Positions 9,057-37,707 of a DNA stretch of 42,651 bases are shown in pieces (the stretch's first letter is position 1; every line of letters begins with the position of its first letter). Source of the stretch: a virus. The stretch spans positions 1 to 42,651 of IMG/VR virus record IMGVR_UViG_3300017991_000032. The stretch is one strand, 5' to 3'. The notes below the pieces were generated by a model that saw only the letters and a program-made list of their open reading frames with translations, searched no databases and was not told the DNA's origin. A program made the translations under genes and the position numbers.

Positions 9057-9059
9057 TTT

Positions 9060-9221
9060 TTACCTCCTTTCTCCAAAATCTTCTCTATCCTTTTTCTCCG
9101 CACATTCCGCGCAGAGCAGTAAGGGGATGCCGTTCGAATAGTAAACGGTGCCCTCATCTACAAATATTGCCCGCATACACTTATCGCAGTTAGCGGTATC
9201 GTCTTGTGGAAATTCGGTCAT
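9060..9221 (-). CDS. Small zinc-ribbon protein
   Basis: A 53-residue protein (MTEFPQDDTANCDKCM to DFGERR). Its ATG overlaps the stop of the RecT-like gene (ATGA), so it is translationally coupled. Two CxxC pairs (CDKC at residues 12-15 and CAEC at 37-40) form a likely zinc ribbon. Its location right after the annealing protein suggests a helper in recombination or replication, but this is inference. Confidence 0.7.
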   Translation of the reverse strand: MTEFPQDDTANCDKCMRAIFVDEGTVYYSNGIPLLLCAECAEKKDREDFGERR

Positions 9222-21404: not shown

Positions 21405-23630
21405 ATGAGCAGATTTAGCGCAGCATTACAGGCATTTAAGAAACCGGACGTACTGGAAAAGGAAGCAGGCACCCCGAAACAAGGCGAGGTCGGTGTTTCG
21501 GCAAGCAGCCTCTATGGAACGGGCCTCTTTAATCAGTACAATCCCGACAGCCTTATGATCAACAAGGGAAACCGGGTTTACAAAACCATGCTCAAGGATG
21601 ATCAGGTCAAACCCACTCTGCAATTCAAGATGAATGCCGTATTGAGCCGTAACTGGTATTTCGATATAGAGACCCAGGACAACGGAGAGCCCCGGAAAGA
21701 CCACGAGGAAATGGCTGCGCTTTTTGAGCATATCATAAACCAGTGCAAGGGCTCCTGGTCCGATCGGCTTATTGAAATCCTCAGCGCCTTCCAAAACGGC
21801 TATTCCGTAGTTGAGAAGGTATTCCAGCCGATTACCTATGACAGTAAAACATATTGGGGCCTGAAAGACCTCAAGCTAAGACCGTTCGATACGTTTGACG
21901 GCGACTTTCAGATTGATAAGCATGGTAATATCGAAAAGGTCAGTCAAATCGTGGGCGGGCAAGCGAATGTCATTCCCCTAACGAAATTGATCCACTTTGT
22001 ACACCAGCCGGATATCAACCGAATCTATGGGGAATCGGATTTACGGGCCTGCTATCGGGCCTGGTGGTCAAAGGATATCGTGATCAAGTTTTACAATATC
22101 TTTCTTGAACGCCACGCCTCCGGGTTTATTTGGGCACAAGTCAAAGGGAGTCTCACAGGCCCCGCAAAGACAAATCTTGAGGATTTGCTCAATAACATCT
22201 CCTCGCGCATGGCCGCGCACGTACCCGATAATATTGACCTCAATTTATTTCAGCCCGTTAGAACGGATGCCTTTGAAAAAGCGATTGCCGTCTATGACAA
22301 GGCGATAGCTAAATCCATACTTGTGCCGAACCTCTTGGGACTATCCGAGCAGGGGCAGACCGGGAGTTACAGTCAGTCGCAAACACAGCTTGAGGCCTTC
22401 TTCTGGATTCTGGATATCATTGCCAAGCGCCTTGAGGAAACGCTAAACGAACAGCTTTTCCGGCAGCTTGCAATCTGGAATTTCGGCACCGAAGATTTCC
22501 CCTGGTTTCGATTCGAGCCGATTTCCGACGCGCAAAAGGCCGAAATAGCGAAGCAATGGGCGGAGCTCGTGAGCAAAGGCGCGGTGACCAAGAGCGATAC
22601 GGATGAGGCCCATGTCAGAAACATAATGGGCTTTCCAGAAAAGGCAGAGGAAGAGGAGCCCGAAGAAGAACCGCCGCCTGTGCCGTTGCCCGGCGAAGGC
22701 CCACCCTCGGAGGAAGAGATTGAAGGCTGGATCTCGGCACAACCCAAGGAAAAGCAAGACCATATCAGAAAGACCTTTGCCGAGCGGCCCTGGTTAAAGC
22801 GCGTGAATTTCACGGCGATTAAGGCCACCCTGGATGATCAGGACAAGAAATTTGTTGACAACCTCAACGAGAGCATGGCCGAGGCCCGCACATCTATTGA
22901 AAAACAAATTATCAATATCGTGGGCACCAGATCCCTCGGGAATGTGAAGCTCAAGGAATTGCTCGGTATTGGTATCAGCAAGGCAATCATGGGCAAGATG
23001 CGCCGGAATATCCGCAACAACCTCACCCGCATACTTGAAAATGGCTATGAGCTGGCCCGCCGTGAGCTGCCCAAGAAAGTACAGGCTAAGGCGATCCGGC
23101 CCGGCATGGACAAGGATCAGGTGGAGAAATACCTTGCAGCTAAGGCCATGACCATCGCCGGTGTGATCGAGCAAGATACCCTGAAAAGCGTACAATACGT
23201 GCTCGAAAACGCCGTGAAATACGATAAGACCCTCGCACAGACAATCAAGGCTATGGGCGAGGAAACTACGCTCTTGCAGATGTTACCGGAGGTGGATGCA
23301 GGAGGAAAGGCTATTAATGTCCCGGCCAGGTTAGAGAACATTGCCCGAACTAATACCGCCGATGCGCTTAATCAGTCACGGCAGGCGTTATTCGGGCAAC
23401 CGGAATTCAGAGGCTTTGTGCTGGCCTATGAATACAGTGCAGTGCTGGATGAGCGGACAACAGACATTTGTGAGTATTTGCACGGCAGGATTCAGAAGGA
23501 TTGGGGCAGCTACACGCCGCCAAACCATTTTATGTGTAGGGCCTTGCTTGTGCCGGTGACCATTGTCGATGAATGGGACGGCAAGGAAAGCCCGAAACCG
23601 AGGCTAGAGCCGCACAAGGGGTTTGCTTAG
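21405..23630 (+). CDS. Portal protein fused to Mu gpF-like domain
   Basis: A 741-residue protein. Residues about 50-425 match the DUF935 portal family (Mu gp29-like), as in KPTLQFKMNAVLSRNW, FQNGYSVVEKVFQ and QTGSYSQSQTQ. A Pro/Glu linker (EEEEPEEEPPPVPLPGEG) follows. The C-terminus (about 640-735) is a Mu gpF/SPP1 gp7-type minor head domain, with IARTNTADALNQSRQ, YSAVLDERTTDICEYLHG and HFMCRALLVPV. In Mu these are two genes. The portal forms the 12-mer DNA gate; the gpF domain is carried inside the head. Confidence 0.9.
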   Translation: MSRFSAALQAFKKPDVLEKEAGTPKQGEVGVSASSLYGTGLFNQYNPDSLMINKGNRVYKTMLKDDQVKPTLQFKMNAVLSRNWYFDIETQDNGEPRKDHEEMAALFEHIINQCKGSWSDRLIEILSAFQNGYSVVEKVFQPITYDSKTYWGLKDLKLRPFDTFDGDFQIDKHGNIEKVSQIVGGQANVIPLTKLIHFVHQPDINRIYGESDLRACYRAWWSKDIVIKFYNIFLERHASGFIWAQVKGSLTGPAKTNLEDLLNNISSRMAAHVPDNIDLNLFQPVRTDAFEKAIAVYDKAIAKSILVPNLLGLSEQGQTGSYSQSQTQLEAFFWILDIIAKRLEETLNEQLFRQLAIWNFGTEDFPWFRFEPISDAQKAEIAKQWAELVSKGAVTKSDTDEAHVRNIMGFPEKAEEEEPEEEPPPVPLPGEGPPSEEEIEGWISAQPKEKQDHIRKTFAERPWLKRVNFTAIKATLDDQDKKFVDNLNESMAEARTSIEKQIINIVGTRSLGNVKLKELLGIGISKAIMGKMRRNIRNNLTRILENGYELARRELPKKVQAKAIRPGMDKDQVEKYLAAKAMTIAGVIEQDTLKSVQYVLENAVKYDKTLAQTIKAMGEETTLLQMLPEVDAGGKAINVPARLENIARTNTADALNQSRQALFGQPEFRGFVLAYEYSAVLDERTTDICEYLHGRIQKDWGSYTPPNHFMCRALLVPVTIVDEWDGKESPKPRLEPHKGFA

Positions 23631-24172
23631 TGAAGCATTTTATTCTCATTGGAAATGGCGGCGGCGGTACAACTTGCACGCAACGGCTTTTGAATTCACA
23701 TTCTCAAATCGAATGCCTGTTTGAGAATAAAGGACAAAGCGGGAGTGTGCGGGCCGATTCGGATTTAACGGAATACTTGCGCCTAGCAGCGGAAGCAGAA
23801 GCGAGAGGTCTTATTTGGGGCAACAAGGAGCCGATTGAGCAGTTTGTTACAAGGGGTTATAGTGCGGAGCAGATCGAGCGCCTTTCGGATCACTTCAAAA
23901 TCATTTGGCTAATGAGGCGATTTTCACGCTATGACAAGCCGAGAACAACTTTTGCGCTTTCGCATCAAAAGTGGACGTATAGACAAACCTGGGATTGGGC
24001 GAGAGAGCGGTTTTGGGCCTGTAAGGATAAACACCCGGAAACAGTAATCAACCTCTCGTGGGAGGATTTGCTTTTGAGGCCGAAGATTGAGCTTGCACGG
24101 ATATGTACGTTTTTAGGCGTGTTGTATGAGCCCGCAATGCTCTCCGAACATTTGAAATTGGAGAAAGTATGA
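23630..24172 (+). CDS. Sulfotransferase
   Basis: A 180-residue protein from the GTG at 23630, which overlaps the portal stop. It opens with FILIGNGGGGTTCTQRLLNSHSQIECL, the 5'-phosphosulfate (PAPS) binding loop of sulfotransferases. It ends with a VINLSWEDLLLRPKIELARICTFLGVLYEPAML segment that is standard for the family. It would transfer sulfate from PAPS to a sugar or other acceptor. It is short (usually about 250 or more residues), so the middle is reduced. The target is inferred to be a surface glycan or virion group. Confidence 0.82.
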   Translation: MKHFILIGNGGGGTTCTQRLLNSHSQIECLFENKGQSGSVRADSDLTEYLRLAAEAEARGLIWGNKEPIEQFVTRGYSAEQIERLSDHFKIIWLMRRFSRYDKPRTTFALSHQKWTYRQTWDWARERFWACKDKHPETVINLSWEDLLLRPKIELARICTFLGVLYEPAMLSEHLKLEKV

Positions 24173-24178
24173 GCTTGT

Positions 24179-24337
24179 CTAGGATGTCTTTTTCATCCTC
24201 TTGCGGATCCCATAGGCACCGATGAGAAAGATAATGGTACCGAAAACGATCTTGAAAGGATCAGCAGGCGGCAGGATGCCGAGGATAACGAAAATGGCAC
24301 CGGCAAGTTCTAAAACAAATGTCAATGGTTTTGTCAC
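24179..24337 (-). CDS. Minus-strand two-helix membrane protein in the late operon
   Basis: A 52-residue protein on the strand opposite to all late genes. GTG start after AAGGGGGTCTCCC. It has two transmembrane helices (LTFVLELAGAIFVILGILPPA and IVFGTIIFLIGAYGI) with a basic tail (RKRMKKTS). The gene runs back toward the sulfotransferase and ends 6 bases from its stop. Codons fit phage use. It is probably expressed from the prophage, as for a superinfection or surface-modifying protein (GtrA-like flippases also have few helices). The function is unknown. Confidence 0.65.
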   Translation of the reverse strand: MTKPLTFVLELAGAIFVILGILPPADPFKIVFGTIIFLIGAYGIRKRMKKTS

Positions 24338-24349
24338 GGGAGACCCCCT

Positions 24350-25108
24350 TTGATTACGTTAAAGACCATAACGACTATTGAGCTTTCTAACATTTGCAAT
24401 CTGAAATGTCAATATTGCATCAACCGGCTGCTCGTAAAACACCCGAGCCGGAAACCGGGCATTATGACAGATCGGGTATTCGATAAAACGCTTGAGCTTT
24501 TGCAAGAGCTTGTGAACAGGGGCACACAGAACGAAGTCAATATGAACGGTGACGGTGAATCGTTTTTAGATCCACAGCTTATCAAGCGGGTAAAACGTAC
24601 CAAGGAAGTCATAGGGTCCCGGCACGTTTGTATGTGCACTAACGGCGTCAATATGACCTATGAAGTTTGTAGAGGCCTCAAAGACGCGGGCATGGATCAG
24701 CTTGATCTCTCACCTCATTCTGTGTGGCATGCCCGGAAAGCGGCACAGATTATGATGCAAGTCGGCATTCCCGGTGTGATCAATGATGGCATTATCACCC
24801 ATTCTCACAATTGGGCTGGCCAGCTTGAGCCGGAAAATCAAATCGAGTGCAGATTGAATTTGTTATGTTTTCCACTCATGGAAGGGAGGGGTTATGTGCT
24901 CACAGAGGGAAATATTACGCCTTGCTGCTATGACTATCGGAATCTGGGGGTTTTTGGCAGCGTGTTTGACGATGATATTTTGGATCATCCTATTCGACCT
25001 TTTGAGCTTTGCAAAACGTGTCATCAGAAGATTCCGCCTGAACTTATGGCGGAATTTGAAATGGAGAATCAATCTACTGACCAAGACCTCGTGAGGATGT
25101 ATGCTTGA
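24350..25108 (+). CDS. Radical SAM / SPASM enzyme 1
   Basis: A 252-residue protein with a TTG start at 24350. CNLKCQYC (C16-x3-C20-x2-C23) is the radical SAM cluster; NMNGDGESFLDPQL and CTNGVNM follow. The C-terminal Cys-rich part (CFPLMEGRGYVLTEGNITPCCYDYRNLGVFGSVFDD, then CKTCHQ) is a SPASM-type auxiliary cluster. Such enzymes modify peptides or sugars. It overlaps the FkbM gene by 8 bases and is a close design match to the second enzyme at 25847. Confidence 0.88.
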   Translation: MITLKTITTIELSNICNLKCQYCINRLLVKHPSRKPGIMTDRVFDKTLELLQELVNRGTQNEVNMNGDGESFLDPQLIKRVKRTKEVIGSRHVCMCTNGVNMTYEVCRGLKDAGMDQLDLSPHSVWHARKAAQIMMQVGIPGVINDGIITHSHNWAGQLEPENQIECRLNLLCFPLMEGRGYVLTEGNITPCCYDYRNLGVFGSVFDDDILDHPIRPFELCKTCHQKIPPELMAEFEMENQSTDQDLVRMYA

Positions 25109-25847
25109 AATACCGCACCCGCATATTACAAAACGCGATATTAAGATGCACATAGCGAAGTCTGATAAATTCATCCTGAATGACGGCGTGAAGTACATGG
25201 AGAATTTTAACGGCTCCCATGACACGATGCTTGAGCTGGGCTCCCATGTCGGCTGCAGCACGTTATATTTTGCAGTAGAAAAAGGTTTTAAGCGAATCCT
25301 AGCCGTCGAAGCCTTTTTTGAAAACTTCGTGAATCTGGTGAAAAATATTTACAATAATCAAGCACAAAATATCATCACGCCTATGTGGGCGGCTGTTGCG
25401 CTCAAGACAGGTGACTTTCGCACGCTATTCTGGTCCGGCTCAAAAAGCAACCATGGACAATACGGGACTTTTTTCAGGCACGATAAGCATATCAATTCGG
25501 GGTTTGCCCAGACAATAAGTTTCGAGCATATCCTATCGCTTTTCGATACGATTGATGTTTTGAAATGTGACATAGAGGGCGGGGAATATGAGATTTTCAG
25601 CCCCCGCGATAGCCTGAAAGATGCACTGAAACGGGTGAGATTCTTAGAACTAGAGACACATACGCCCAATGACGACTATTTTGAGGATGACGAATTCGCT
25701 CAATTCGGGTACCCGCACCAACGGAACGCAAATAGGATCTTGAAAGACTTCCTTAAAGATTGCGGATTCGATTTTGACTTTAGGGGCAAAACTGAGGGAG
25801 GAATGCAGGGATACAATAGAAATTTTAAGGGATGGAAGGATGTTTAA
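25101..25847 (+). CDS. FkbM-family methyltransferase
   Basis: A 248-residue protein. LELGSHVGCSTLYFA is the SAM-binding motif I, ILAVEAFFENFVNLVKNI motif II, and IDVLKCDIEGGEYEIF the diagnostic FkbM block. FkbM enzymes are O-methyltransferases that often act on sugars or lipids of surface polysaccharides. It overlaps the radical SAM gene upstream, and its TAA is shared with the ATG of the second radical SAM gene, so the three are one tight unit. Confidence 0.9.
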   Translation: MLEIPHPHITKRDIKMHIAKSDKFILNDGVKYMENFNGSHDTMLELGSHVGCSTLYFAVEKGFKRILAVEAFFENFVNLVKNIYNNQAQNIITPMWAAVALKTGDFRTLFWSGSKSNHGQYGTFFRHDKHINSGFAQTISFEHILSLFDTIDVLKCDIEGGEYEIFSPRDSLKDALKRVRFLELETHTPNDDYFEDDEFAQFGYPHQRNANRILKDFLKDCGFDFDFRGKTEGGMQGYNRNFKGWKDV

Positions 25848-26557
25848 TGCAGCCAATAACAACGATAAATAGCATTGAGGTCTCAAGTCTTTGTAACAAC
25901 ACGTGCCCGTATTGTCCGGCCCCTTTTCAGAAGAAGTTCCGGGAAGTCGGAAACATGAGCATGGAGATATTTGAGAAAGCCATTGAATGGGTATCGCATT
26001 ATTGCAAACAGGGCACACAGCTTGAGTTAAACCTATTCGGCATAGGTGAGCCCACGTTAAACCCCGATCTTGCAGAGATGGTCCGATTTGCTCGCAATAA
26101 GCTACCTATCAGGCAGGTTATACATACGAATACAAACGGAAAACTTATGACCGAGGAGCTTGCACGGAAATTGAAAGATGCTGGTATTACGGGAATCGAT
26201 ATCACGCACCATGGCGACCCTCGCGTAACAGCCAAGACAATTCAGATATTTCGAAAGCTCGATATTGCAGGCCAACTCTCGCTTGACCCCGTGACACGCC
26301 CGAATAATTGGGCGGGACAGGTGGATTGGTTCGAAAGCCCTGTCACGTATCTTTGCCCCTGGCTTGAGAGGGGGCAAGTAATGATTATGAGCGACGGCGA
26401 TGTGACGACGTGCTGCCTAGACGCAGCGAAAAAGGGCGTAGTGGGTAATATCTTTGATGACATTACGAAATTCAGGCTTGAGCCGTATGAGCTTTGTGCG
26501 AAATGCCATCAGATAGTACCGGAGAGAATGCAGAGGATTAAAGTAGTAAACGGTTGA
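25847..26557 (+). CDS. Radical SAM / SPASM enzyme 2
   Basis: A 236-residue protein from the ATG at 25847 (TAATG). CNNTCPYC has the same C16-x3-C20-x2-C23 layout as the upstream enzyme. LNLFGIGEPTLNPDLAEM, HTNTNGKLMTEE and the Cys-rich end (CPWLERGQVMIMSDGDVTTCCLDAAKKG, CAKCHQ) again indicate a SPASM domain. The two enzymes are homologous but diverged in most loops, so they probably do different steps or use different substrates. Confidence 0.88.
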   Translation: MQPITTINSIEVSSLCNNTCPYCPAPFQKKFREVGNMSMEIFEKAIEWVSHYCKQGTQLELNLFGIGEPTLNPDLAEMVRFARNKLPIRQVIHTNTNGKLMTEELARKLKDAGITGIDITHHGDPRVTAKTIQIFRKLDIAGQLSLDPVTRPNNWAGQVDWFESPVTYLCPWLERGQVMIMSDGDVTTCCLDAAKKGVVGNIFDDITKFRLEPYELCAKCHQIVPERMQRIKVVNG

Positions 26558-26577: not shown

Positions 26578-26659
26578 CTCTAAGGCCCCGGAACCTTAGA
26601 GCATAACATTCAAGGCGGCTGTTGAGGAGCCTCAACCTTCTCAATATGCTGCCTTTTTT
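26578..26659 (+). terminator. Two consecutive hairpins, the second a terminator
   Basis: The first hairpin is a perfect 8-bp stem, CTCTAAGG/CCTTAGAG (26578-26585 and 26594-26601). The second pairs AAGGCGGC (26612-26619) with GCTGCCTT (26648-26655). It has an inner perfect stem TTGAGG/CCTCAA (26622-26627 and 26630-26635) and is followed by TTTT. They separate the modification enzymes from the protease and capsid genes and could limit or set the level of the two groups. TTGACA at 26558-26563 before the first hairpin lacks a clear -10 box. Confidence 0.65.
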
Positions 26660-26682
26660 GTTGGCCGATGGAGGATATAACG

Positions 26683-27918
26683 ATGCCTTACCCAACATTA
26701 GAAAGTTTGCCCGATAGCGTGAAAGTGCTTCCCAAGGACGCACAGGAGATATGGCGGAATACGGCGAATAGCTCTTTGGAAAAGACCCCCGGAGATGACG
26801 AGAAAGCCTCAAAGATAGCCTGGGGCGCTGTTAAAAACGCGGGCTGGGCCAAAGACGCCGAGGGCAACTGGAAGAAATCACAGACTGCGCCGAAAACCCA
26901 TGAATTCGATGTCGAGGTTTTCAGCGTCGGGATCTGGAACGGTGACGCGTACACCGAGGGCGATCTAAATGAGATGGTTCATGCTTTCTATGAGTTGCAG
27001 GAGAAAGTCAAGCCCCCGGTGAAATTAGCACACGATAATAGCATGCACCTGAAAGACGGCCAGCCCTCTCTCGGGTGGGTAAAGGGCCTCAAGAAAGTCG
27101 GCGACAAGCTGATCGCCACTGTGACACAGGTGCCGGAGGTACTGTACAAGGCAATAACCTCGGGACGCTACAAACGGGTGAGCGCCGAGATTTATTGGAA
27201 TCTGAAGGAAAGCGGCAAAGTATTCAAGCGAGTACTTTCCGCCGTTGGATTACTAGGGGCGGATATACCCGCCGTTACCAACCTCGCCGACTTAGAGGCT
27301 TTTCTGTCCATGACTCCCGAGGCCGGGACGTTTGAAAAAATGGCCACCTACGCCTTTGATGTCAATGAAAGCGGGGAAATCAAGATAGATGAGGAGGACA
27401 ACAAGATGTCTGACGAAAAGATTAAACAACTTACGGATGAGCTCAACAAGGCAAAGGCTGACTTGGAGAAATCTCAGGATGAGAACAAGACCTATAAGGC
27501 CGAGGCCGAGGCTTTGAAGAAAGAGAAAAGCGAAAGTCTGAAAACTGCCCGTGTTGATGAAGTCAAGACCTTCTGCGAGCAGATGGTGAAAGACGGCAAG
27601 ATGACACCGGCGGCCCGCGATATTCTGGTCAATGACTTGGATAAGCACAGCTATACGGATGATAACGGCTTTGCGATCCCCTTCGAGGCCTTCAAAAAAG
27701 TCTTTGAAACCCACGCTAAGGTTTTTGACGTGGGCGAGAAAGGGCAAGAAGGCGGCGGCGAGGAAAAGAAAGAATATGCCAATGCCGGTGAGGAGCTTGA
27801 GGCCAAGACCAGGAAATACATGGCCGATCACAAGGATGTGAATTATGCCGAGGCTTCCAGGGCCGTGCTCGAATCCGACAAGGATCTTGCTGAGCGATAC
27901 GCCCTAGAGGACTTGTAA
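26683..27918 (+). CDS. Head maturation protease with ChaB-like N-terminus and scaffold C-terminus
   Basis: A 411-residue protein from the ATG at 26683 behind GGAGG. Residues 1-66 look like a ChaB domain (LPDSVKVLPKDAQEIWRNTANSSLEK, AWGAVKNAGWAKD). Residues about 70-230 resemble the Mu gpI-type protease (VKLAHDNSMHLKDGQPSLGWVKGLKKVGDKLIATVTQVP, then KRVSAEIYWN and LGADIPAV). The last 170 residues are a charged coiled coil that fits scaffolding. It cleaves and releases scaffold during capsid maturation. Confidence 0.78.
   Translation: MPYPTLESLPDSVKVLPKDAQEIWRNTANSSLEKTPGDDEKASKIAWGAVKNAGWAKDAEGNWKKSQTAPKTHEFDVEVFSVGIWNGDAYTEGDLNEMVHAFYELQEKVKPPVKLAHDNSMHLKDGQPSLGWVKGLKKVGDKLIATVTQVPEVLYKAITSGRYKRVSAEIYWNLKESGKVFKRVLSAVGLLGADIPAVTNLADLEAFLSMTPEAGTFEKMATYAFDVNESGEIKIDEEDNKMSDEKIKQLTDELNKAKADLEKSQDENKTYKAEAEALKKEKSESLKTARVDEVKTFCEQMVKDGKMTPAARDILVNDLDKHSYTDDNGFAIPFEAFKKVFETHAKVFDVGEKGQEGGGEEKKEYANAGEELEAKTRKYMADHKDVNYAEASRAVLESDKDLAERYALEDL
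27406..27918 (+). CDS. Nested scaffold protein from an internal start
   Basis: An in-frame ATG at 27406 follows AGGAGG with 8-base spacing, as good a site as any in the genome. It would yield a separate 170-residue protein (MSDEKIKQLTDELNKAK) that is entirely the coiled-coil scaffold part. Mu (gpI/gpZ) and lambda (gpC/Nu3) use the same nested protease-scaffold design. The strong internal site makes a second product likely. Confidence 0.65.
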   Translation: MSDEKIKQLTDELNKAKADLEKSQDENKTYKAEAEALKKEKSESLKTARVDEVKTFCEQMVKDGKMTPAARDILVNDLDKHSYTDDNGFAIPFEAFKKVFETHAKVFDVGEKGQEGGGEEKKEYANAGEELEAKTRKYMADHKDVNYAEASRAVLESDKDLAERYALEDL

Positions 27919-27951: not shown

Positions 27952-28671
27952 ATGGCTACTCAGAATGTGCGCTTTAACACGACTATTGAAGCAACGGAAG
28001 ATCTTAACACTTCTGCCTTTCAATATCATGCTATCGCCCTGGATGACGGAAAGCTCGCAAATAACGGCGAGGAAACAAGCGGTATTTTGCTCAACAAGCC
28101 CAAGGATGGAGAATTTCTTACCCTTGGCTATCAAGGCGAAATGAAGTTTGCCGCCGGTGCAGCGATCTCAAAGGGCGCCAAGCTAACAGTAACATTGAGC
28201 GGCTGGTTTACAACCGCCGACAGCAATGATCCAATTTTAGGAGAGGCCAAAGCCGCCGTGACTTCCGGGTCACTAGGTACGGGGCTTTTTAATATTCCAA
28301 CAGGGTCGGACAAGTCAAACATAATTATGGAATCGATTACGGCGAGTGTGGATATGCTTGCAGGAACGGCGATTGATTTGACTGATCACGAGCAGGCCGA
28401 TGTCGGCGACGAAGCCGATGCCGTGGCGTTAGGCGCGGCAACCGCTGGAACTGCTCGGAATTTCGGCGTTTTTGGGATTATGAACGTCAAATGTGATCCC
28501 GCCAAAGTCTGTTCTTTGGGAGATCCCCTTACCGTAACGACTTCCGGGTATTTCATCCCGTGTGACTCTGGATATTGGTCAGTCGGGAAAGCACTGGAAA
28601 ACATCGGGAGTGATTCAACCGGAAAGGCGCTTTTTCTCGGCGGAACCTTTGGCTATGTCTCGTCAATGTAG
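27952..28671 (+). CDS. Head decoration protein, long paralogue
   Basis: A 239-residue protein behind GAGGAGGTGATAG. The N-terminal 110 residues resemble the 28685-29062 product, with AIALDDGKLANNGEETSGILLNKPKDGE, AAGAAISKGAKL and VTSGSLGTGLFN. They fit the DUF2190-like capsid decoration or stabiliser family often found just before the major capsid gene. The C-terminal half (ASVDMLAGTAIDLTDHEQ to GGTFGYVSSM) appears to be a second related unit. Confidence 0.72.
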   Translation: MATQNVRFNTTIEATEDLNTSAFQYHAIALDDGKLANNGEETSGILLNKPKDGEFLTLGYQGEMKFAAGAAISKGAKLTVTLSGWFTTADSNDPILGEAKAAVTSGSLGTGLFNIPTGSDKSNIIMESITASVDMLAGTAIDLTDHEQADVGDEADAVALGAATAGTARNFGVFGIMNVKCDPAKVCSLGDPLTVTTSGYFIPCDSGYWSVGKALENIGSDSTGKALFLGGTFGYVSSM

Positions 28672-28684
28672 GAGGTGAAGTTTT

Positions 28685-29062
28685 ATGGCAGTACAAGGAA
28701 AAGCCGCAGTTACAGCTACTATTCAAGCAGGTGAGGATCTCAGCAGCCATCAGTACAAAGCGATTGCATTTGATGACGGCGAACGGGCTGACAATAGTCA
28801 CGAGGCCGCTGGGATCATACTCAATAAACCGAAAGACAATGAGCACGCAGAATATGGCGTTATCGGAGAATTCAAATACTGGGCAGGTGGCGCAATAACC
28901 GCCGGTAATAGGCTGAGGGTAGACACCGATGGTTGGATGGCCCTCGCTGACAGCGGATATTACACCGTGGGTAGGTCAAAGACTACCGTTACCAGTGGCA
29001 GCATCGGAACCGGATTCTTCAATTTCGCCGCGCCGTTTTATCAGGACGTGAGCTCATTATAA
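28685..29062 (+). CDS. Head decoration protein, short paralogue
   Basis: A 125-residue protein behind AGGAGGTGAAG. It is a diverged copy of the N-terminal half of the previous product: YKAIAFDDGERADNSHEAAGIILNKPKDNEH, WAGGAITAGNRLRV and VTSGSIGTGFFNF. Two decoration proteins in tandem suggest a capsid carrying two kinds of outer protein or a trimer built from different chains. The gene is 18 bases from the major capsid gene. Confidence 0.72.
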   Translation: MAVQGKAAVTATIQAGEDLSSHQYKAIAFDDGERADNSHEAAGIILNKPKDNEHAEYGVIGEFKYWAGGAITAGNRLRVDTDGWMALADSGYYTVGRSKTTVTSGSIGTGFFNFAAPFYQDVSSL

Positions 29063-29080: not shown

Positions 29081-30061
29081 ATGGCAGGAGGAGGAGCAAC
29101 AGGTCACGACCTGCACCTTGATCAGCATTTATCAAATATAGCAATCAACTATCACCCTCAAGGCATGATCGCTGATGTTATCGCGCCTATCGTCAAGGTA
29201 GTCAAGCAAAGCGATAATTATATCATCTGGGATCATGCAGACGCCTTCAGGGTAGAGGAGGATAAAAGGTCTCCCGGAGCGGAAGCGAATAAGATTGAGC
29301 GCAGTGTCTCATCTGAGACGTATTTCGCGGATAATTACGCCCTGAAAATGCCCTTGAACCTTGAGGATAGGGAAAACATGGACCCGGTTTTCATCGGCGA
29401 GATGCGGGAAGGCCGGACTAAATTTATCAAGAATAAGCTCATGTTGAGCTGGGAAAAACGAACAGCCGAGCTTTGCACCAGTGGAAGCAATGTTGGCTCA
29501 TACGCCACGATTGACTCGGATTGGATCGAAACACGGAACAGTTACAGTGATCCCCTTGCTGATTGCTGGACCGCTATCTATAACGTGGCGGATTCCACGG
29601 GCTATAAGCCTAATCGGTGCATTATGGGTGATACCGCATGGAGATATTTCAGACGGCATGCGGATGTAATCGACATCATTCATGGCAACACTGGCAACAA
29701 AGGCGCGGACAGTGTTCGGTATGCCACGGTGGAACAGTTCAAGAAGATTTTCGACCTTGAAGCGTTTCACGTAGGCAGGGCTTACTACAATAGCAACCAG
29801 GAAGGACAGAGCGCATCGTTAAGCGTGCTGTGGGATGATTATGTGTTGTGGTATTACGCACCGTCTAACCCGAGCGCGGAGGAACCCAGCTTCATGTATT
29901 CCTTCCGGTGGACAAAGCCCGGATTGCCGAACATGATCGCAGAGCGGCATCCGTTTGACCCGAAAACCAAGAGTGAGGAGATCGAGCTCGGTTACTATCA
30001 GGATGAAAAGATTACTGCAAAGAATCTCGGATACCTGATGACCCATGTAACCAGCGTTTAA
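29081..30061 (+). CDS. Major capsid protein
   Basis: A 326-residue protein behind TAGGAGGTGAACG, in the classic place after protease/scaffold and decoration genes. It starts MAGGGATGHDLHLDQHLSNIAINYHPQG. It includes DNYIIWDHADAFRVEEDKRSPGAEANKIE, then SWEKRTAELC and DTAWRYFRRHADVID. This layout is that of HK97-fold capsid proteins found with DUF935 portals. Codon use is clean, and the strong site plus following hairpin fit a protein made in large amounts. Confidence 0.82.
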   Translation: MAGGGATGHDLHLDQHLSNIAINYHPQGMIADVIAPIVKVVKQSDNYIIWDHADAFRVEEDKRSPGAEANKIERSVSSETYFADNYALKMPLNLEDRENMDPVFIGEMREGRTKFIKNKLMLSWEKRTAELCTSGSNVGSYATIDSDWIETRNSYSDPLADCWTAIYNVADSTGYKPNRCIMGDTAWRYFRRHADVIDIIHGNTGNKGADSVRYATVEQFKKIFDLEAFHVGRAYYNSNQEGQSASLSVLWDDYVLWYYAPSNPSAEEPSFMYSFRWTKPGLPNMIAERHPFDPKTKSEEIELGYYQDEKITAKNLGYLMTHVTSV

Positions 30062-30392: not shown

Positions 30393-33311
30393 ATGCACAT
30401 AGCAATGGCAATTCCCGGCATGCCATTCAATGGCGCGACTATCTCCGAGAGCAAAAGCCTCGGGGGGTCGGAAAGCGCCGGGTATTACATGGCCAAGGAA
30501 TTAGTAAAGCGTGGCCATAACGTAATCGTTTTTACAAACAGCGAGCAAGCTGGCAAATGGGATGGCGTCACTTATGAGTTTTTAGGCACTCCCCGCGAAA
30601 ATATGCCTATGGGCGAGCGATTTCATTACGTCATGCATGCCCCCTATGATGTCGTGATAGCACAACGGCATCCCTACGCATTCAAGAGTATCTACAATAG
30701 CAAGCTCAATGTGTGGTGGCTGCATGATCTGGCTTTGCACCGGTATTCTGCACAGATGCAAGAACAGCTTATGAATATCGATCAAGTTTTTACGGTTTCG
30801 GAATTCCACAAGCGACAGGTCTCGGAGGTTTATGGAATCCCGGAAGGCTTTATTTCGGCAACGAAAAACGGCCTTGCTTATGAAGAATATGAAGGCCTTG
30901 AGATATTTGAGCGCGAGCCGAATAGCCTTGTTTATGCCTCACGGCCCGAGCGCGGTCTTGAAAACCTCGTGGGGCCGGACGGTATCATGGACATGCTGCC
31001 CGATTGCCACCTATACGTTTGTGGCTATGACAATACCGTGCCTCAATTAAAGCAGTATTATCAATATCTCTGGGGTCTTTGTGACCAGCGAAAGAACGTG
31101 ACAAACCTGGGGGCCCTGGGCAAACGGCAACTCGCAGAACTCATGGCCCGGTGCATGCTTTACGTTTACCCCACGACTTTTGAGGATACGAGCTGCATGG
31201 TGGCCCTTGAAGCCAATGCCTGCGGGACGCCGTTTATTGCATTTAAGACCGCAGCCCTCCCGGAAACAATGAATGAGGCCGGTGCGATCCTGCTTGACCT
31301 GGATGAAAAAGGGCAAGTGAATAAGAAGCTCTTTGCTAAAACGGTGCGGACCGCCTTGCACAAATGGACAGGCTTGCACAAGAAGGCCAAGGCAAAGCGG
31401 CAGGCATGGCCGGATATAGCTGCGGAATGGGAGCAGCAGTTTGAAGCTATGCTCAGGGAACGGAGTTCAAACAAATATCGCTTACATAATCACTTTGAGC
31501 AGCAGAGCGATATTGCGGCAGCCGTGAAGGACGGTGCTGAAAAGACAGTGCCGGATATCAAACAGAATTATTACTTCTTCTTTTCCGGTGATTACATAGA
31601 CCATTACAAGCGCTACTACATTCACGAAGAAAAAAAGGGTGTGCATTACGGCCCGGAAAACCTGGCCCAGCAACCTCGTTTTCTTCAGATATTCAAGAAG
31701 GTGCAGGACTTGAAACCCAAAACCATCTTGGATTTCGGATGCGCTCATGGCCACTATAGCATGAATATCGGGTTAAGAATGCCGGAGGTCAGGATCACAG
31801 GCGTTGACTTTATGCAGTCAAATATCGACAAATCCCGTGCTTGGGCGGCCAAAGAAAAGGTGCAGGATCGGATTAAATTCAAGTGCGGAGAAATTGAAAA
31901 GATACATGAGGAATTAGGGAAATTCGATTTAGTTATAGCCTCCGAGACATTCGAGCACGTGCCGAATGTGCAAGAGATATCGGATATCCTTTTGAAGCAC
32001 CTCGAGCCGAATGGCCACATGCTTATTACCGTGCCTTGTGGCCCCTGGGAAGCATGGGGATATGACCAAGATCCGGGATGGCGAGCCCACATCCACCATT
32101 TTGAGCGGCAAGACCTTTTTGAGATTTGGGGTAATCAGCGCGAATATAAACTGATCGCTATACCCTATACTTACGTGGCCAAGGGGTATCTCGGCCACTG
32201 GCTCCTGACATTCCAAAACTCTGGCTTGCCTACGGGTCAAATCAACTATGAGCGGAAACTGAAACAGCAGGCCCCCCGCGAAACCCTCTCGGTCTGCATG
32301 ATCGCTAAGGACTCGGAATATACCCTCGGCAAGACACTGAAAAGCGTGAAATCCATTGCACATGAGATCATTATCGGAATCGATGAAACCACAACGGATG
32401 AGACCGAGCGCGTGGCCAAGAAATTCGGAGCTAAGACTTTCAAAATCAAGTCGCCCTTAGAGCAGGGGTTTGACGAGGCCCGGAATCGGACAATCGAAAA
32501 AGCGACTATGGATTGGATCTTGTGGATTGACAGTGATGAGACCCTCGAGGATGCAATAAATCTGCCGCAGCACTTGAGGCAGAATTGCTATAACGGGTAT
32601 TCGGTCAGACAGCACCATTACGCAACGGAACCGGCTGCCCTGTTCAAGACAGACCTTCCGGCCCGGATATTCCGCAATCATAAGGGAATCAAGTTTTACG
32701 GCATGGTGCATGAGCATCCCGAAGAGGAAATGAATTCGGGGATCAGCAAGATTTGTGTATTGAATGATATTGCAATCATGCACACCGGGTATGCAACCGA
32801 GCGGATTCGGCGGGCACGGTTTCAGCGCAACTGGCCCCTCATGCAACGGGATAGAAAGAAATACCCCACGCGGCGCTTAGGGTGTTTCCTCTGGATGCGG
32901 GATCTCATACATCAAGTCAAGTACACCCTGGAAAGCAACGGCGGGCAATTTACGGAAGAGTTGAGGAAGTATGCCGGCGAAGCGATAACGATCTGGCGGG
33001 ATCTCCTGGAAAAGAACGAGCTCCGCATGGTCATTGACGGCATGCAGTATTACACGGAGGCGGTCCGTTTACTCAACAACGGTAACGGCATTAGATTTTC
33101 ATACCTTGACCTTGCCTCGAACCTCACCCCGCATATAGACGAGAACAAGCGGGCGCAGCTCAATTCCGGCCTCATGTCTGCCCTCGAATTTCAGGGCCGG
33201 ATTGCGGAGAATCTCTTTGATGGGGTTTTCGAGAACAAGGAAGATATTAAACGTTTAACCCAAAGGCTCATAGAGGCCAAAACAGGCGTGTATGAGGAAA
33301 AATATTTCTAG
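30393..33311 (+). CDS. Three-domain GT4 glycosyltransferase / methyltransferase / GT2 glycosyltransferase
   Basis: A 972-residue protein. Residues 1-370 are a GT4 (GT-B) glycosyltransferase (AIPGMPFNGATISESKSLGGSE, GTPFIAFKTAALPE). Residues about 380-620 are a class I methyltransferase, with motif I ILDFGCAHGHYS at about 444 and VIASETFEHVP. Residues about 630-860 are a GT2 enzyme (LSVCMIAKDSEYTLGKTLKSV, IDSDE at 710-714, MVHEHPEE). The last 110 residues are helical. It would build and methylate a glycan. It lies next to the capsid genes and fits the surface-modification set at 23630-26557. Confidence 0.88.
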   Translation: MHIAMAIPGMPFNGATISESKSLGGSESAGYYMAKELVKRGHNVIVFTNSEQAGKWDGVTYEFLGTPRENMPMGERFHYVMHAPYDVVIAQRHPYAFKSIYNSKLNVWWLHDLALHRYSAQMQEQLMNIDQVFTVSEFHKRQVSEVYGIPEGFISATKNGLAYEEYEGLEIFEREPNSLVYASRPERGLENLVGPDGIMDMLPDCHLYVCGYDNTVPQLKQYYQYLWGLCDQRKNVTNLGALGKRQLAELMARCMLYVYPTTFEDTSCMVALEANACGTPFIAFKTAALPETMNEAGAILLDLDEKGQVNKKLFAKTVRTALHKWTGLHKKAKAKRQAWPDIAAEWEQQFEAMLRERSSNKYRLHNHFEQQSDIAAAVKDGAEKTVPDIKQNYYFFFSGDYIDHYKRYYIHEEKKGVHYGPENLAQQPRFLQIFKKVQDLKPKTILDFGCAHGHYSMNIGLRMPEVRITGVDFMQSNIDKSRAWAAKEKVQDRIKFKCGEIEKIHEELGKFDLVIASETFEHVPNVQEISDILLKHLEPNGHMLITVPCGPWEAWGYDQDPGWRAHIHHFERQDLFEIWGNQREYKLIAIPYTYVAKGYLGHWLLTFQNSGLPTGQINYERKLKQQAPRETLSVCMIAKDSEYTLGKTLKSVKSIAHEIIIGIDETTTDETERVAKKFGAKTFKIKSPLEQGFDEARNRTIEKATMDWILWIDSDETLEDAINLPQHLRQNCYNGYSVRQHHYATEPAALFKTDLPARIFRNHKGIKFYGMVHEHPEEEMNSGISKICVLNDIAIMHTGYATERIRRARFQRNWPLMQRDRKKYPTRRLGCFLWMRDLIHQVKYTLESNGGQFTEELRKYAGEAITIWRDLLEKNELRMVIDGMQYYTEAVRLLNNGNGIRFSYLDLASNLTPHIDENKRAQLNSGLMSALEFQGRIAENLFDGVFENKEDIKRLTQRLIEAKTGVYEEKYF

Positions 33312-33319: not shown

Positions 33320-33727
33320 ATGAAAAAATTAGCTTTTGTAACAGGCATTTGCCTCATGGCACTTTTGGTGCCCGTGCTGGCGTTTGGGGCCGATTTACAA
33401 TGGGATGACCCTGGTGCGGAATGGGATACCATAATCGGCTATACGATTTATTTCTCCGATGCCTCTGAGGATTTCAATAAAAGTGTGCTCACAGATGAGC
33501 TGGTGCGGGAAAGCGGCAACGTAACCTATCTGGATATTGATGACAACCTCAACCTGCATTATGGCGTGGAATATACGTTCTATATTACAGCTTACAATGA
33601 TGCGAACGAATCAGGGCCGTCTAACAGCGTAACTTATACTAGGGAGGCTTATGTCCCCCCTTTGGACCACCTGCCGACTCCGGTTGTTTCCTCTCCACAA
33701 TCAGCAGTCGGCTTAGGGATAAATTAA
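33320..33727 (+). CDS. Secreted fibronectin type III protein
   Basis: A 135-residue protein behind AGGAGGATAC. The N-terminus is a clear Sec signal (MKKLAFVTGICLMALLVPVLAFG, then A-D), probably cut near residue 24. One fibronectin III domain follows (WDTIIGYTIYFSDASEDF, VEYTFYITAYNDANESGPSN). A signal sequence is rare among virion genes, so the protein is probably exported by the lysogen and may bind surface sugar. It is next to the glycosyltransferase gene. Confidence 0.72.
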   Translation: MKKLAFVTGICLMALLVPVLAFGADLQWDDPGAEWDTIIGYTIYFSDASEDFNKSVLTDELVRESGNVTYLDIDDNLNLHYGVEYTFYITAYNDANESGPSNSVTYTREAYVPPLDHLPTPVVSSPQSAVGLGIN

Positions 33728-33767
33728 GATAAACCTCCGTGTTTCTTCTCAGTAATAAGGAGATAGT

Positions 33768-34382
33768 ATGGCCAAATGGTCGGTAGCGATACGAGCGATT
33801 GATACACCCCGATATTATCTCAGGCGCACAGAGGATGGTCGCACGGTGAGCTGGCACCAGGAAGAGCCCAGAGATTTTGATGAGAAGCTCTTTTTTGTCC
33901 ACGAGTGCATCGGCTGGGAGAAACGGCTTGAGTTCGGTGATATTGTGGCATTCAAGCCCTATGAGATGACTGGCCGGATGCCACATTACAGCGCAAGGCA
34001 TCGCTGGGGCCACGATGTGTGGACGGAACAGGAGCGCAAGACCTATACCATAGTCACACTTGATGGCCTGGAACTGGAGCAGATGTTTGCGCTCTGTGAA
34101 GCCTATTACGACACAAGCATTATTATCTCGGATAAAGAAGAGGGATTTCCCGACGAATATTTCAAAAAGCGCAGATTTAAGCTACTTGAAGAAGATTTGG
34201 ATGTGCTCGGTGCTGATATTGCCCGCATGAAAAACAAGGAAGATGCCTATATGCCCTCAATGCGAGACATCGTAAAAGAAGATAATTGGGATAAGCTGAG
34301 GCTGCGAAAAGTAGCATCAACGGACAATCTTAGACCTATTGATCCCTTACCGACAACCATACGAAGGGTCATGGAGAAGTAA
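33768..34382 (+). CDS. Hypothetical protein
   Basis: A 204-residue soluble, charged protein (MAKWSVAIRAIDTPRYYLRRTE) behind AAGGAGATAG. No signal or membrane segment. It contains REWG-like blocks (RHRWGHDVWTEQERKTYTIVTLDGLELEQM) but I do not recognise a family. It stands between the FN3 gene and the adhesin-like gene and ends right before the latter's ATG. Confidence 0.6.
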   Translation: MAKWSVAIRAIDTPRYYLRRTEDGRTVSWHQEEPRDFDEKLFFVHECIGWEKRLEFGDIVAFKPYEMTGRMPHYSARHRWGHDVWTEQERKTYTIVTLDGLELEQMFALCEAYYDTSIIISDKEEGFPDEYFKKRRFKLLEEDLDVLGADIARMKNKEDAYMPSMRDIVKEDNWDKLRLRKVASTDNLRPIDPLPTTIRRVMEK

Positions 34383-35447
34383 ATGGCCTGTTACGATTCT
34401 GGCGATTATACTTGTACTTACGATTCTGGCGGCAACGGGTCGCTGCCCGGTGGCGGAGATCCAGATTATAGCTCCCTTGCCACGTGGGAAGGAGACACGG
34501 ATATTGATATATCCGGCTACGGGATTCTTACGCTCGACTGCTACGATAGCCAGACTCACGATGACGAATGCGACACTTTCGGAGGGGCGAGTGGATTAGA
34601 CAGCACCCATTATCGCAGAATCCAATCTTCTTCAAGTTGCGCCACACCGTTTGCCGGAAAGACAAGCACCGGTGCATACTTTGAGTCGACCGGCGTTTTG
34701 CAAGGTGTGATGAAAATTATAGAAGATTACTTTCGGGTTCAGCAATTAAGTACACGATTCAATGGTACGAGGGCTGGCGATATCTCGACGGTAAACATTT
34801 ACGGGGACCATGCAGTGTTAGTCCATGTTATATCGAGAAATTCGCATAATAACCATGAGTCGTATGATATAGAATCCGAAATAAAGTTAACCTCTGGAGC
34901 TGCGGGCGAAAGTGAGACCCTTGCCTATGCTTGTATTGCGTCAGACTGTCAAGATGGATCTGGATTTTACACCTATCCTTACCCCAACGGTTGTAGGATG
35001 GCTTTTATCTGCTGTACAGCCATCGGAAACGCTGCCTATGGCTTCGAAAACACAAATGGAAGCGGCACGGCGGAAGTATTTAGTTGTTATGCGGGCAATA
35101 ACACTTCCGGCGACTTTCTTGAAACGAACTGGAATGACTTCTCCGATTATAATGTCTCCGGCGATGAAACCTCGGATTTAGGAGGTACAAGCTCAAATTA
35201 TACCCACAACAAAGACTATTGGGACGGCGGCACTGACGATGCAATGGATGGCGATGATCTGCTCACGGCATCAGTCGATGGAGGCCGAAACCCCTATAAT
35301 GACGTAACCGGAACGAGCGATTTCAACAACTTTTTGAGGAACGATACATCAGGAGATGCTTTATTCAAATATAGCATCGAGGGTAACGAGAGGCCGAATG
35401 AGGATACAATAGACGCCACATGGGACGTTGGGGCGAGTGAGTATTAG
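34383..35447 (+). CDS. Adhesin-like beta-helix protein
   Basis: A 354-residue protein, Cys-, Asp- and Ser-rich at the N-terminus (MACYDSGDYTCTYDSGGNGS). It continues with beta-rich pieces (RRIQSSSSCATPF, GTAEVFSCYAGNN) and ends IDATWDVGASEY. The ending is the D-x-G-A-x-E-Y type common to parallel beta-helix surface proteins. No signal peptide. It may be a head or tail fibre subunit that binds host or environmental polysaccharide. Confidence 0.6.
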   Translation: MACYDSGDYTCTYDSGGNGSLPGGGDPDYSSLATWEGDTDIDISGYGILTLDCYDSQTHDDECDTFGGASGLDSTHYRRIQSSSSCATPFAGKTSTGAYFESTGVLQGVMKIIEDYFRVQQLSTRFNGTRAGDISTVNIYGDHAVLVHVISRNSHNNHESYDIESEIKLTSGAAGESETLAYACIASDCQDGSGFYTYPYPNGCRMAFICCTAIGNAAYGFENTNGSGTAEVFSCYAGNNTSGDFLETNWNDFSDYNVSGDETSDLGGTSSNYTHNKDYWDGGTDDAMDGDDLLTASVDGGRNPYNDVTGTSDFNNFLRNDTSGDALFKYSIEGNERPNEDTIDATWDVGASEY

Positions 35448-35514
35448 GCGGCGGGGGGAGCGATCTCAATACTTCCCATGATCAATTATTATAAAAGACT
35501 TTTGAGAAATTGAG

Positions 35515-37707
35515 ATGAAAGAACTAATCGGAAAAACGATAATCACTTTTCCCGTTGGCCCGATTGTGAGCAATTCGGACGGCCTTACGCCGGTGACCGA
35601 TCTCACGCTTTCGGGAGCTGATGAAAAGGCTATCAGGAAATACGGCAACGTGACGCCGGTAAGCATCTCGGCGAATAGCTGGGCGGCAATAAGCTCAATG
35701 GAGGGCCATTACAATCTCACGCTGACAAATTCGCAGATGGATACTTATGGTCCCATGAGGATCAGCATTCAAGATGATAGCAAATGCCTGCCCTATTTCG
35801 AGGATGTATCGGTCGTTACCTCGGCTTTCTGGAACAGTAAATACAATACGAATGATTGGGCCTCAGCGCATGCCGTAAGTTCCCTCGATACACGAGTTTC
35901 AAGCATCGGTGTGGAAGTCGATTCAATCCAGGCCCAGGTAACGAGCACGTATAATAAACTGAGCGATTTTCCGGTTTCCGGATATCTCCCGAGCTCCGAG
36001 ACGCTCAATGCACATATAGCGACATTAGCAACCTCCGAAACACTGAATGCACATATAATTACTTTACCGACCTCCGAAACCGTCATGGATGCCATAAGCT
36101 CGGTAGATGTTCGAGTATCCAGCATTGCTATAGAGGTTGATTCTATCCAAGCACAGGTCACATCTAACTATCACCGCATGGGAGACTTTCCGACTTCCGG
36201 ATATTTACCCAGCTCGGAAACCTTGAATGCACATATAGCAACGCTGGCTACATCGGAGACCCTTAATGCTCACATAATAACGCTTCCCACAAGCGAAACC
36301 CTAAACGCCCATATCGTAACCTTGCCCACATCCGAAGCGGTTGGAACGATAGCGGATAAAGCCCTTTCGGATGTCAACCTTGATCACCTAATGAAAACGG
36401 TCGTCACGGATAGCGGTGATTTGACGAATGAGGTTGCCGATTTCAGCGTTTTGGGCCTCATGATGGCCGCTGGCGGTGATATGAGTTCTTTCGTCAGCAG
36501 TGATGATTCGCTTCAGGCCATTGCGGAAGGTGCGGCAGGCGGCGGTGCTTCGGCCAGTGAGGTTCAAAGTGCTTGCTTTGATGTTATACAAGACATGAAC
36601 CTTGACCATCTTATGAAAACGGTGGTTGCTGATAGCTCAGACCTTACAACGGAGGTGGCGGATTTTAGTGTGCTTTCATTGATCATGGCCTCCGGCGGAG
36701 ATACCTCAACCTTTGTTTCCTCGGATGATTCTTTGCAAGGTATCAGCGAAGGCGCAGCCGGTGGCGGGGCAAACAAGAGCGAGGTACAGTCGGCCTGTTT
36801 TGATGCCTTTACCGGGATTCTCCCGAATTCGGAAACCTTAAAATCTCATATTGACACATTGCCGACTTCACAAACCCTAAACGCGCATATTGTTACTTTG
36901 CCCACGAGTGAGACCTTAAAGACGCACATTGACACGTTGCCAACCTCGGAGGGCCTGCATAGCGAAATCGGCACGTTGCCTAACTCACAGACCTTGAACG
37001 CACACATTGTTACGCTACCTACAAGTAGCATGGTTCACCTGGCAGATGACCGGGTTTCCTCAGTAGAGGCACAGGTAGATTCGACTTATAACAGGCTCGG
37101 TGATTTTCCAGTGTCCGGGTATTTGCCAAGCTCTGAAACCCTGAATACGCATGTGATTACCTTGCCTACAAGCGAAACGCTGGAAACTCAGATCAATACA
37201 TTGCCGACATCGGAAACTTTAAATGATCACATAGCGACACTTCCCACGTCCGAGACCTTGTATGATCATATTGCAACCCTGCCCGTGAGCGGTTATTTGC
37301 CGAGCAGTTCAACGCTTGATGATTTAATAGCAACACTCCCGACAAGTTTGACGTTGCAGGCTCACATCGCTACATTACCCACAAGCGAGACATTGAACGC
37401 CCATATGGTGACACTTCCTAATTCACAAACGGTTATGAATGCCGTAAGCTCAATGGATGTACGGGTCACAAGCCTTGCCGTGCATGTGGGTAGCCTGGCA
37501 ACGGAGATCTTTGCAACTGAGGTTGAAAGCGGGTATTCTCTGCTAAGGAAACAGCGGATTGACATGAGTGTGCTTACCGGGATCACGAGCGGGGTCGGCA
37601 CAAGCACCTTGCATTTCCGGGATGTGGGAGACAGCAAGGCTCGATTGATTGTAACGGTAGATTCTGACGGCAACCGCACCGCCGTCAATACGCTGGATGG
37701 CTCGTAA
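35515..37707 (+). CDS. Fibre protein with 13-residue tandem repeats
   Basis: A 730-residue protein. Residues 1-100 form a globular head (TIITFPVGPIVSNSDGLTPVTDLTLSGADE) that I take to be the virion-binding end. Then come about 20 copies of a 13-residue unit (S-E-T-L-N-A-H-I-x-T-L-P-T), a tandem 74-residue duplication beginning at residues 288 and 362, and a C-terminal cap. It probably forms a long, thin trimeric rod on the head or tail. It stands between head and tail-joining genes, so head fibre is plausible. Confidence 0.75.
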   Translation: MKELIGKTIITFPVGPIVSNSDGLTPVTDLTLSGADEKAIRKYGNVTPVSISANSWAAISSMEGHYNLTLTNSQMDTYGPMRISIQDDSKCLPYFEDVSVVTSAFWNSKYNTNDWASAHAVSSLDTRVSSIGVEVDSIQAQVTSTYNKLSDFPVSGYLPSSETLNAHIATLATSETLNAHIITLPTSETVMDAISSVDVRVSSIAIEVDSIQAQVTSNYHRMGDFPTSGYLPSSETLNAHIATLATSETLNAHIITLPTSETLNAHIVTLPTSEAVGTIADKALSDVNLDHLMKTVVTDSGDLTNEVADFSVLGLMMAAGGDMSSFVSSDDSLQAIAEGAAGGGASASEVQSACFDVIQDMNLDHLMKTVVADSSDLTTEVADFSVLSLIMASGGDTSTFVSSDDSLQGISEGAAGGGANKSEVQSACFDAFTGILPNSETLKSHIDTLPTSQTLNAHIVTLPTSETLKTHIDTLPTSEGLHSEIGTLPNSQTLNAHIVTLPTSSMVHLADDRVSSVEAQVDSTYNRLGDFPVSGYLPSSETLNTHVITLPTSETLETQINTLPTSETLNDHIATLPTSETLYDHIATLPVSGYLPSSSTLDDLIATLPTSLTLQAHIATLPTSETLNAHMVTLPNSQTVMNAVSSMDVRVTSLAVHVGSLATEIFATEVESGYSLLRKQRIDMSVLTGITSGVGTSTLHFRDVGDSKARLIVTVDSDGNRTAVNTLDGS
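35992..37445 (+). repeat. Tandem 39-bp coding repeats
   Basis: Each 39-base unit encodes S-E-T-L-N-A-H-I-x-T-L-P-T or a close variant. About 20 units are seen, interrupted by longer blocks at about 36085-36215, 36350-36830 and 37030-37130. The DNA copies differ at many third codon positions, so the array is old and kept by selection on protein. Unit number may vary between relatives. Confidence 0.75.

Follow-up and report, generated by a model that had tools for sequence, protein, structure and literature searches.

The locus studied here raises the question of why a phage would place sulfotransferase, radical S-adenosylmethionine (SAM), and methyltransferase genes in the middle of its head module. 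It lies in a 42,651-base virus record, IMGVR_UViG_3300017991_000032 (analyzed over its full length and called the window below), from an uncultivated, temperate phage that encodes an integrase along with a Mu-type portal, a type E capsid protein, and a tail tube of siphophage-like type. A sequence-only reading of the window had placed four genes between the portal and head maturation protease genes, encoding a sulfotransferase-family protein, two radical SAM enzymes (rSAM1 and rSAM2), and an FkbM-family methyltransferase, and had proposed that they alter groups on the capsid, a fiber, or the host surface. The four genes and their overlaps were borne out (Table 1): their products passed Pfam or NCBIfam cut-offs, the last base of the portal stop codon (TAG, 23628-23630) is shared with the sulfotransferase GTG (TAGTG), rSAM1 and FkbM overlap by 8 bases, and FkbM and rSAM2 share TAATG. 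Since a 177-bp gap separates the sulfotransferase gene from rSAM1, direct overlaps within the cassette are limited to rSAM1-FkbM-rSAM2. We consider it moderately probable that the locus serves as the tailoring part of a virion glycosylation system encoded by the phage itself, in which a fusion glycosyltransferase encoded downstream of the capsid gene would build a glycan and the radical SAM enzymes, methyltransferases, and possibly sulfotransferases would tailor it.

rSAM1 and rSAM2 are predicted to be BtrN-like Twitch enzymes

Both radical SAM proteins scored well above the Pfam cut-off for this superfamily (54.9 and 50.7 bits versus 29.5 bits). The SPASM label that they had been given did not hold up, since the seven-Cys SPASM motif (as defined in PMC6231123) matched neither protein and none of the 101 distinct homologues, whereas the shorter four-Cys Twitch motif, CX9-15GX4C...CX2C, is present in both proteins and in 98 of the 101 homologues; of the three homologues that lack it, two are located close to or at the end of a contig or frame. 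An identity as SPASM peptide maturases was therefore rejected. The CX3CX2C radical SAM cluster motif was intact in 100 of the 101, and in curated alignments the three cysteines of the radical SAM cluster and the four of a single auxiliary cluster, seven in total, were invariant.

This layout, a Twitch domain with one auxiliary cluster, is the one described for BtrN (PMC6231123), which oxidizes the aminocyclitol 2-deoxy-scyllo-inosamine, a sugar-like alcohol, by two electrons (PMC9012708). BtrN was the top match in the PDB for both rSAM profiles and the top Foldseek match for both AlphaFold models (E values of 7.6e-9 and 5.8e-10; TM scores of about 0.54 to 0.66), the models themselves being of middling confidence (predicted local distance difference test [pLDDT] scores of 72 to 74). 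Motifs, profiles, and predicted folds thus identify rSAM1 and rSAM2 as putative Twitch radical SAM enzymes of a BtrN-like kind.

The two proteins are paralogues with 36% identity. A tree of 80 sequences placed the 21 "first" genes of the window's group in a single supported clade and their 21 "second" genes, together with six single genes, in another, which implies that the duplication is old. Against relatives, the ratio of nonsynonymous to synonymous substitution rates (dN/dS), taken where synonymous sites were unsaturated, was 0.04 to 0.14 for rSAM1, rSAM2, and the fusion gene and was similarly low for FkbM, indicating that the cassette genes are real and constrained. A scan of about 85,000 prokaryote genomes gave no match to rSAM1, and rSAM2-like proteins were found there on only two metagenome-assembled genome contigs, one of which matched a viral record that had turned up before (L060/L225), so that the scan pointed to no host.

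The radical SAM pair, and not the four-gene set, recurs among relatives

When IMG/VR was scanned with rSAM1 and rSAM2, matches came from dozens of uncultivated viral contigs. Gene order in the window's group was portal, rSAM1, optional genes, rSAM2, protease, cement, and capsid. The window shared the exact four-gene order with just one other contig (L003/L020), which has identical DNA in this region and so does not count as independent; the four-gene operon, put forward by the sequence-only reading as a set, was rejected as a unit. Between or beside the pair, relatives carried FkbM, a Methyltransf_11 protein, a sulfotransferase, an amidase, small unassigned proteins, or nothing. Comparison of gene orders indicates that the conserved unit of the cassette is the radical SAM pair and that FkbM, the second methyltransferase, and the sulfotransferase are present in some relatives and absent from others. 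The amidase, in L031 (5993-6508), is an N-acetylmuramoyl-L-alanine amidase (PF01510) encoded between rSAM1 and rSAM2.

The two optional enzymes of the window differ in how far their activity can be predicted. FkbM exceeded both curated cut-offs (22.7 bits for PF05050 and 37.7 bits for TIGR01444). The sulfotransferase-family protein owes its PF13469 score mostly to its C-terminal half, and all six homologues in this phage group match this family, so membership in the fold family is secure. Sulfotransferases that use 3'-phosphoadenosine 5'-phosphosulfate carry a 5'-phosphosulfate loop motif, [KR][ST]G[TS], in which a lysine or arginine is expected. This residue was absent in all six homologues, with glycine (as in the window protein), valine, or leucine in its place, which makes sulfation doubtful. 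Of the earlier suggestion that sulfated groups are made, the family assignment stands and the activity is uncertain.

A fusion glycosyltransferase gene accompanies the capsid gene in all testable loci

Two genes beyond the capsid gene, and in the same orientation as the head module, the window encodes a three-domain fusion of a family 4 glycosyltransferase (GT4), a methyltransferase, and a family 2 glycosyltransferase (GT2). We measured its linkage to the head module from a search seeded by the capsid protein and not by the radical SAM proteins, keeping only the 80 nearest capsid relatives; 41 loci were testable, each with a portal gene and with the capsid gene flanked on each side by at least 3.5 kb. 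The fusion gene lay downstream of the capsid gene in all 41. Radical SAM genes were present in at least 18 of the 41, a lower bound given that such a gene can fall beyond the fetched flank (one case, L129/G010). Among larger contigs, some of which had been selected by the fusion gene, the corresponding counts were 18/18 and 11/18. Mapped on the capsid tree, radical SAM presence or absence required 14 changes, and at least nine of these changes were forced by well-supported branches, although a few may be artefacts of truncated loci (the capsid proteins of L105 and L106, for example, are identical, yet the two loci differ in length). The pattern across these loci is that of a constant glycosyltransferase gene and optional radical SAM genes that appear to have been gained and lost many times.

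Radical SAM genes found outside the portal-protease gap often adjoin the fusion gene (L039, L045, L046, L050, and L040). The sequence-only reading had named, as the outcome that would speak against it, the same genes lying far from structural genes in another known pathway. No such case was seen: in L040 to L044 the radical SAM gene is not among the head genes, yet it still adjoins the same glycosyltransferase. In relatives that lack radical SAM genes, the gap is filled by other, unassigned proteins, so that it is an insertion site.

The three-domain layout of the fusion was intact across relatives. In L025 the gene is split into two overlapping frames (6149-8746 and 8512-9069), which may reflect a sequencing error or a broken gene. 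Among solved structures, the GT2 domain profile best matched GmaR (E = 4.8e-26) and SunS (E = 2.9e-20), the former of which transfers N-acetylglucosamine (GlcNAc) to flagellin (PMC9638930). The GT4 domain profile matched ordinary GT4 enzymes in the PDB, including lipid-linked sugar transferases. A search of isolated phages with the fusion enzyme gave part-length matches only; in isolated phages with distant capsid relatives (CRP-6 and Ps60), no gene next to the capsid gene is annotated as a glycosyltransferase, and a 767-amino-acid gene product of Arthrobacter phage Ottawa had no Pfam match.

A proposed route to a tailored virion glycan

Glycosylated virions have been demonstrated in few phages, where glycosylation affects antibody recognition. 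Given the head-module location in many related phages, the purifying selection, and the company of sugar-chemistry enzymes, surface chemistry is the best reading of the locus, as had been suggested before; the limits set for the cassette need to be redrawn, since the fusion enzyme (30393-33311) that would be central to it lies outside the four genes.

The sequences themselves show the gene identities, the motifs, the purifying selection, the linkage, and the pattern of one core enzyme with decorators; from them we infer the substrate, the order of steps, the product, and the benefit, as follows. The GmaR/SunS-like GT2 domain would glycosylate a virion protein, the likeliest acceptors being the major capsid protein and the neighboring head decoration proteins, after which the GT4 domain would extend the sugar and the middle domain of the fusion enzyme would methylate it. 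rSAM1 and rSAM2 would each form a 5'-deoxyadenosyl radical and abstract hydrogen from a sugar C-H; with the second electron passing to the Twitch cluster, the position would be oxidized (or epimerized), as BtrN does with its aminocyclitol. FkbM (or the second methyltransferase where relatives have it) would then O-methylate the altered sugar, which may also be sulfated by the sulfotransferase-family protein. In this scheme the fusion enzyme is the fixed core and the other genes are swappable decorators, giving each phage a different surface, which would probably help against recognition or for adsorption.

Extended to the lineage, the proposal is more tentative: possibly, a large group of uncultivated phages builds a virion glycan with a capsid-linked GT4-methyltransferase-GT2 enzyme and edits it by paired radical SAM chemistry, with modular decorators varying by phage. 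If so, an entire capsid lineage of environmental phages would have virion glycosylation as a fixed trait, and among the decorators would be radical enzymes able to alter unactivated sugar C-H bonds. These would be testable enzymes and a source of unusual glycans, and a capsid gene followed by a GT4-methyltransferase-GT2 gene would serve as a metagenome marker for glycosylated phages.

Several observations weigh against this proposal. The residue at the position of BtrN Arg152, which we take to be a substrate-site residue, is a tryptophan (in an NWAGQ motif) in nearly all homologues; the exact substrate or reaction must therefore differ from that of BtrN, and rSAM1 and rSAM2 were not filed as BtrN orthologues. 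The C-terminal Twitch part of both AlphaFold models is of low confidence. Published networks indicate, moreover, that Twitch/SPASM function is not readable from similarity (PMC6231123). The GT2 domain scored far under the NCBIfam equivalog cut-off for SunS (58.7 versus 350 bits), its similarities cannot fix the acceptor, and no nucleotide-sugar synthesis genes were identified within the window. Finally, the rSAM2, FkbM, and sulfotransferase proteins had no match in isolated phages, and no isolate carries the set, which is known from genes alone.

Other explanations for the locus

The integrase of this phage makes lysogenic conversion possible, and phage glycosyltransferases are often read as acting on the host, including those of pelagimyophages, which also have radical SAM cassettes in a host-recognition region (PMC7029224). 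The set might modify the host surface (lipopolysaccharide [LPS], capsule, or S-layer) in infected or lysogenic cells, perhaps preventing superinfection or aiding virion release, with the head module being no more than its location; the lipid-linked sugar transferases among the GT4 relatives would fit such a role. We consider this unlikely, because the fusion gene follows the capsid gene in 41/41 loci on the head-gene strand and not near the integrase, no gene for a lipid carrier, flippase, or membrane glycosyltransferase was recognized beside it, and its GT2 domain is closest to protein glycosyltransferases. Less likely still, the radical SAM pair might act directly on a head protein as peptide or protein maturases, independently of any sugar, to form a cross-link, epimer, or thioether. 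Many Twitch/SPASM enzymes do have peptide substrates, the fold matches include ChlB, TigE, and SkfB, and the pair often lies between the portal and protease genes. However, BtrN, a small-molecule enzyme, was the best match of both proteins by two methods, about 240 amino acids leave little space for an N-terminal peptide-recognition domain, and the SPASM motif occurs in no homologue. Nor is a short precursor gene conserved beside the pair in the loci listed, and the pair comes and goes while the capsid protein stays.

The variable contents of the portal-protease gap invite another explanation, that the genes are moron cargo whose roles are unrelated and which sit together only because the gap tolerates insertions. 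This is partly true, as it holds for the portal-protease site itself, which in relatives without radical SAM genes houses other, unassigned proteins and which has FkbM, the second methyltransferase, and the sulfotransferase among its freely varying contents. As an account of the whole locus it is very unlikely: the rSAM genes of the window's group keep their first and second order as two old clades, the gap contents recur as sugar-type tailoring enzymes and not at random, and radical SAM genes outside the gap recur beside the fusion glycosyltransferase. Least probable of all is hypermodification of the phage DNA, in which a base would be hydroxylated, glycosylated, and tailored to escape restriction. 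Phage glycosyltransferases can put diverse glycans on DNA (work cited in PMC12619734), and the window encodes a C5-cytosine methylase (PF00145; 14922-15785, plus strand), upstream of the terminase and head genes. A thymidylate synthase-like hydroxymethylase (PF00303), however, was absent from 14 of the 18 records searched, the window among them, and such an enzyme was found in only one radical SAM-positive contig. Tet_JBP was unmatched in the 18 records, a weak result from a search run without a positive control, and in the searches made neither the GT2 nor the GT4 domain was closest to DNA glucosyltransferases.

Relation to known systems

If the locus does encode virion glycosylation, its nearest precedents would be mycobacteriophages Che8 and Rita, with glycans on the capsid and tail tube (Freeman 2023, as cited in PMC12619734 and PMC11256854). 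According to those papers, phage-encoded glycosyltransferases are proposed to act on virion proteins there too, in a siphophage with an integrase; the system described here differs in its GT4-methyltransferase-GT2 fusion, whose gene keeps a fixed place after the capsid gene, in its radical SAM tailoring enzymes, and in being known from genes alone. BtrN of butirosin biosynthesis (PDB 4m7s and 4m7t) shares with the rSAM proteins a length of about 250 amino acids and a CX3CX2C motif plus one four-Cys Twitch cluster, whereas the rSAM proteins are only about 20% identical to it, carry the tryptophan in place of Arg152, and occur as paired paralogues in a phage. GmaR (the Listeria flagellin O-GlcNAc transferase) and SunS (the sublancin S-glycosyltransferase), the best solved relatives of the GT2 domain, glycosylate proteins or peptides, but here the domain is fused behind GT4 and methyltransferase domains. 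The window's FkbM, whose SAM-binding motifs look intact, differs from the wider family in that its gene is confined to a subset of relatives. Pelagimyophages have gained radical SAM cassettes in a variable host-recognition region that also holds glycosyltransferases, with no mechanism given (PMC7029224). Those cassettes, likened here by description and not by homology, lie near tail fibers, their glycosyltransferases are of the GT8 type, and the authors read them as changing host LPS (PMC7029224). Phage virion glycosylation is thus already known; no published account of paired Twitch enzymes with a capsid-linked glycosyltransferase, or of a radical SAM-tailored form, was found in the literature covered, a weak negative given that most subscription papers fell outside this coverage.

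Gene map and flanking features

The sequence-only reading had taken the overlap between the portal and sulfotransferase genes to suggest late expression with the virion genes. This had been inference only, and a conserved terminator-like structure was found between rSAM2 and the protease gene, directly before the protease ribosome-binding site. Its two strong hairpins are kept, with paired changes, in L021, L022, L024, and L026. No Rfam match was found for the region, and pattern scans for promoters and terminators gave chance-level results only. A terminator so near the protease gene would leave no space for a promoter to fit between them.

TABLE 1 Features of the head module in the window
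Feature	Coordinates	Strand	Evidence and remarks
Portal protein, C-terminal Mu F-like minor head domain	21405..23630	+	PF06074 E 8.8e-49; PF04233 E 5.6e-9; phrog_113
Sulfotransferase-family protein, 180 amino acids, optional	23630..24172	+	PF13469 40 bits (cut-off 27); GTG start
rSAM1, putative radical SAM, Twitch auxiliary-cluster domain, BtrN-like, first paralogue	24350..25108	+	PF04055; BtrN by profile and fold; TTG start
FkbM-family methyltransferase, optional	25101..25847	+	PF05050 37.4 bits and TIGR01444 44.2 bits, both above cut-off
rSAM2, putative radical SAM, Twitch domain, BtrN-like, second paralogue	25847..26557	+	PF04055; BtrN by profile and fold; ATG start
Two hairpins, the second followed by a T run (TTTTTT), terminator- or attenuator-like	26578..26660	+	Fold z-score -5.5
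Head maturation protease, N-terminal ChaB domain	26683..27918	+	phrog_976; start by homology, upstream in-frame ATG at 26668
Head decoration/cement-like protein, candidate glycan acceptor	27952..28671	+	phrog_673 E 8.9e-13; PF09956 E 2.9e-4, below cut-off
Second head decoration/cement-like protein, candidate glycan acceptor	28685..29062	+	phrog_673; PF09956 below cut-off
Major capsid protein, candidate glycan acceptor	29081..30061	+	PF03864 29 bits (cut-off 22.9); phrog_1005 E 1.6e-60
Fusion enzyme, 972 amino acids: GT4 (~1-400), methyltransferase (~401-615), GT2 (~616-860)	30393..33311	+	Pfam; PDB profile matches

The guanine-plus-cytosine content of the cassette (0.44 to 0.47 between positions 24 and 26 kb) is only slightly low, and base composition gave no strong sign of recent transfer. 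A search for tRNA genes found none. Within the gap between the sulfotransferase gene and rSAM1, an antisense open reading frame of 52 codons (24179-24337, minus strand) starts with GTG after a G-rich stretch and encodes two hydrophobic, membrane-like segments. Elsewhere in the window, a 691-amino-acid protein with right-handed beta-helix repeats (4043-6118, plus strand) is perhaps a tailspike. The window's genes between the fusion enzyme and the neck genes (33320-37707, plus strand), one of them with an fn3 domain, give way to other genes in relatives, so that this interval looks like a second variable site, perhaps for head or tail fibers.

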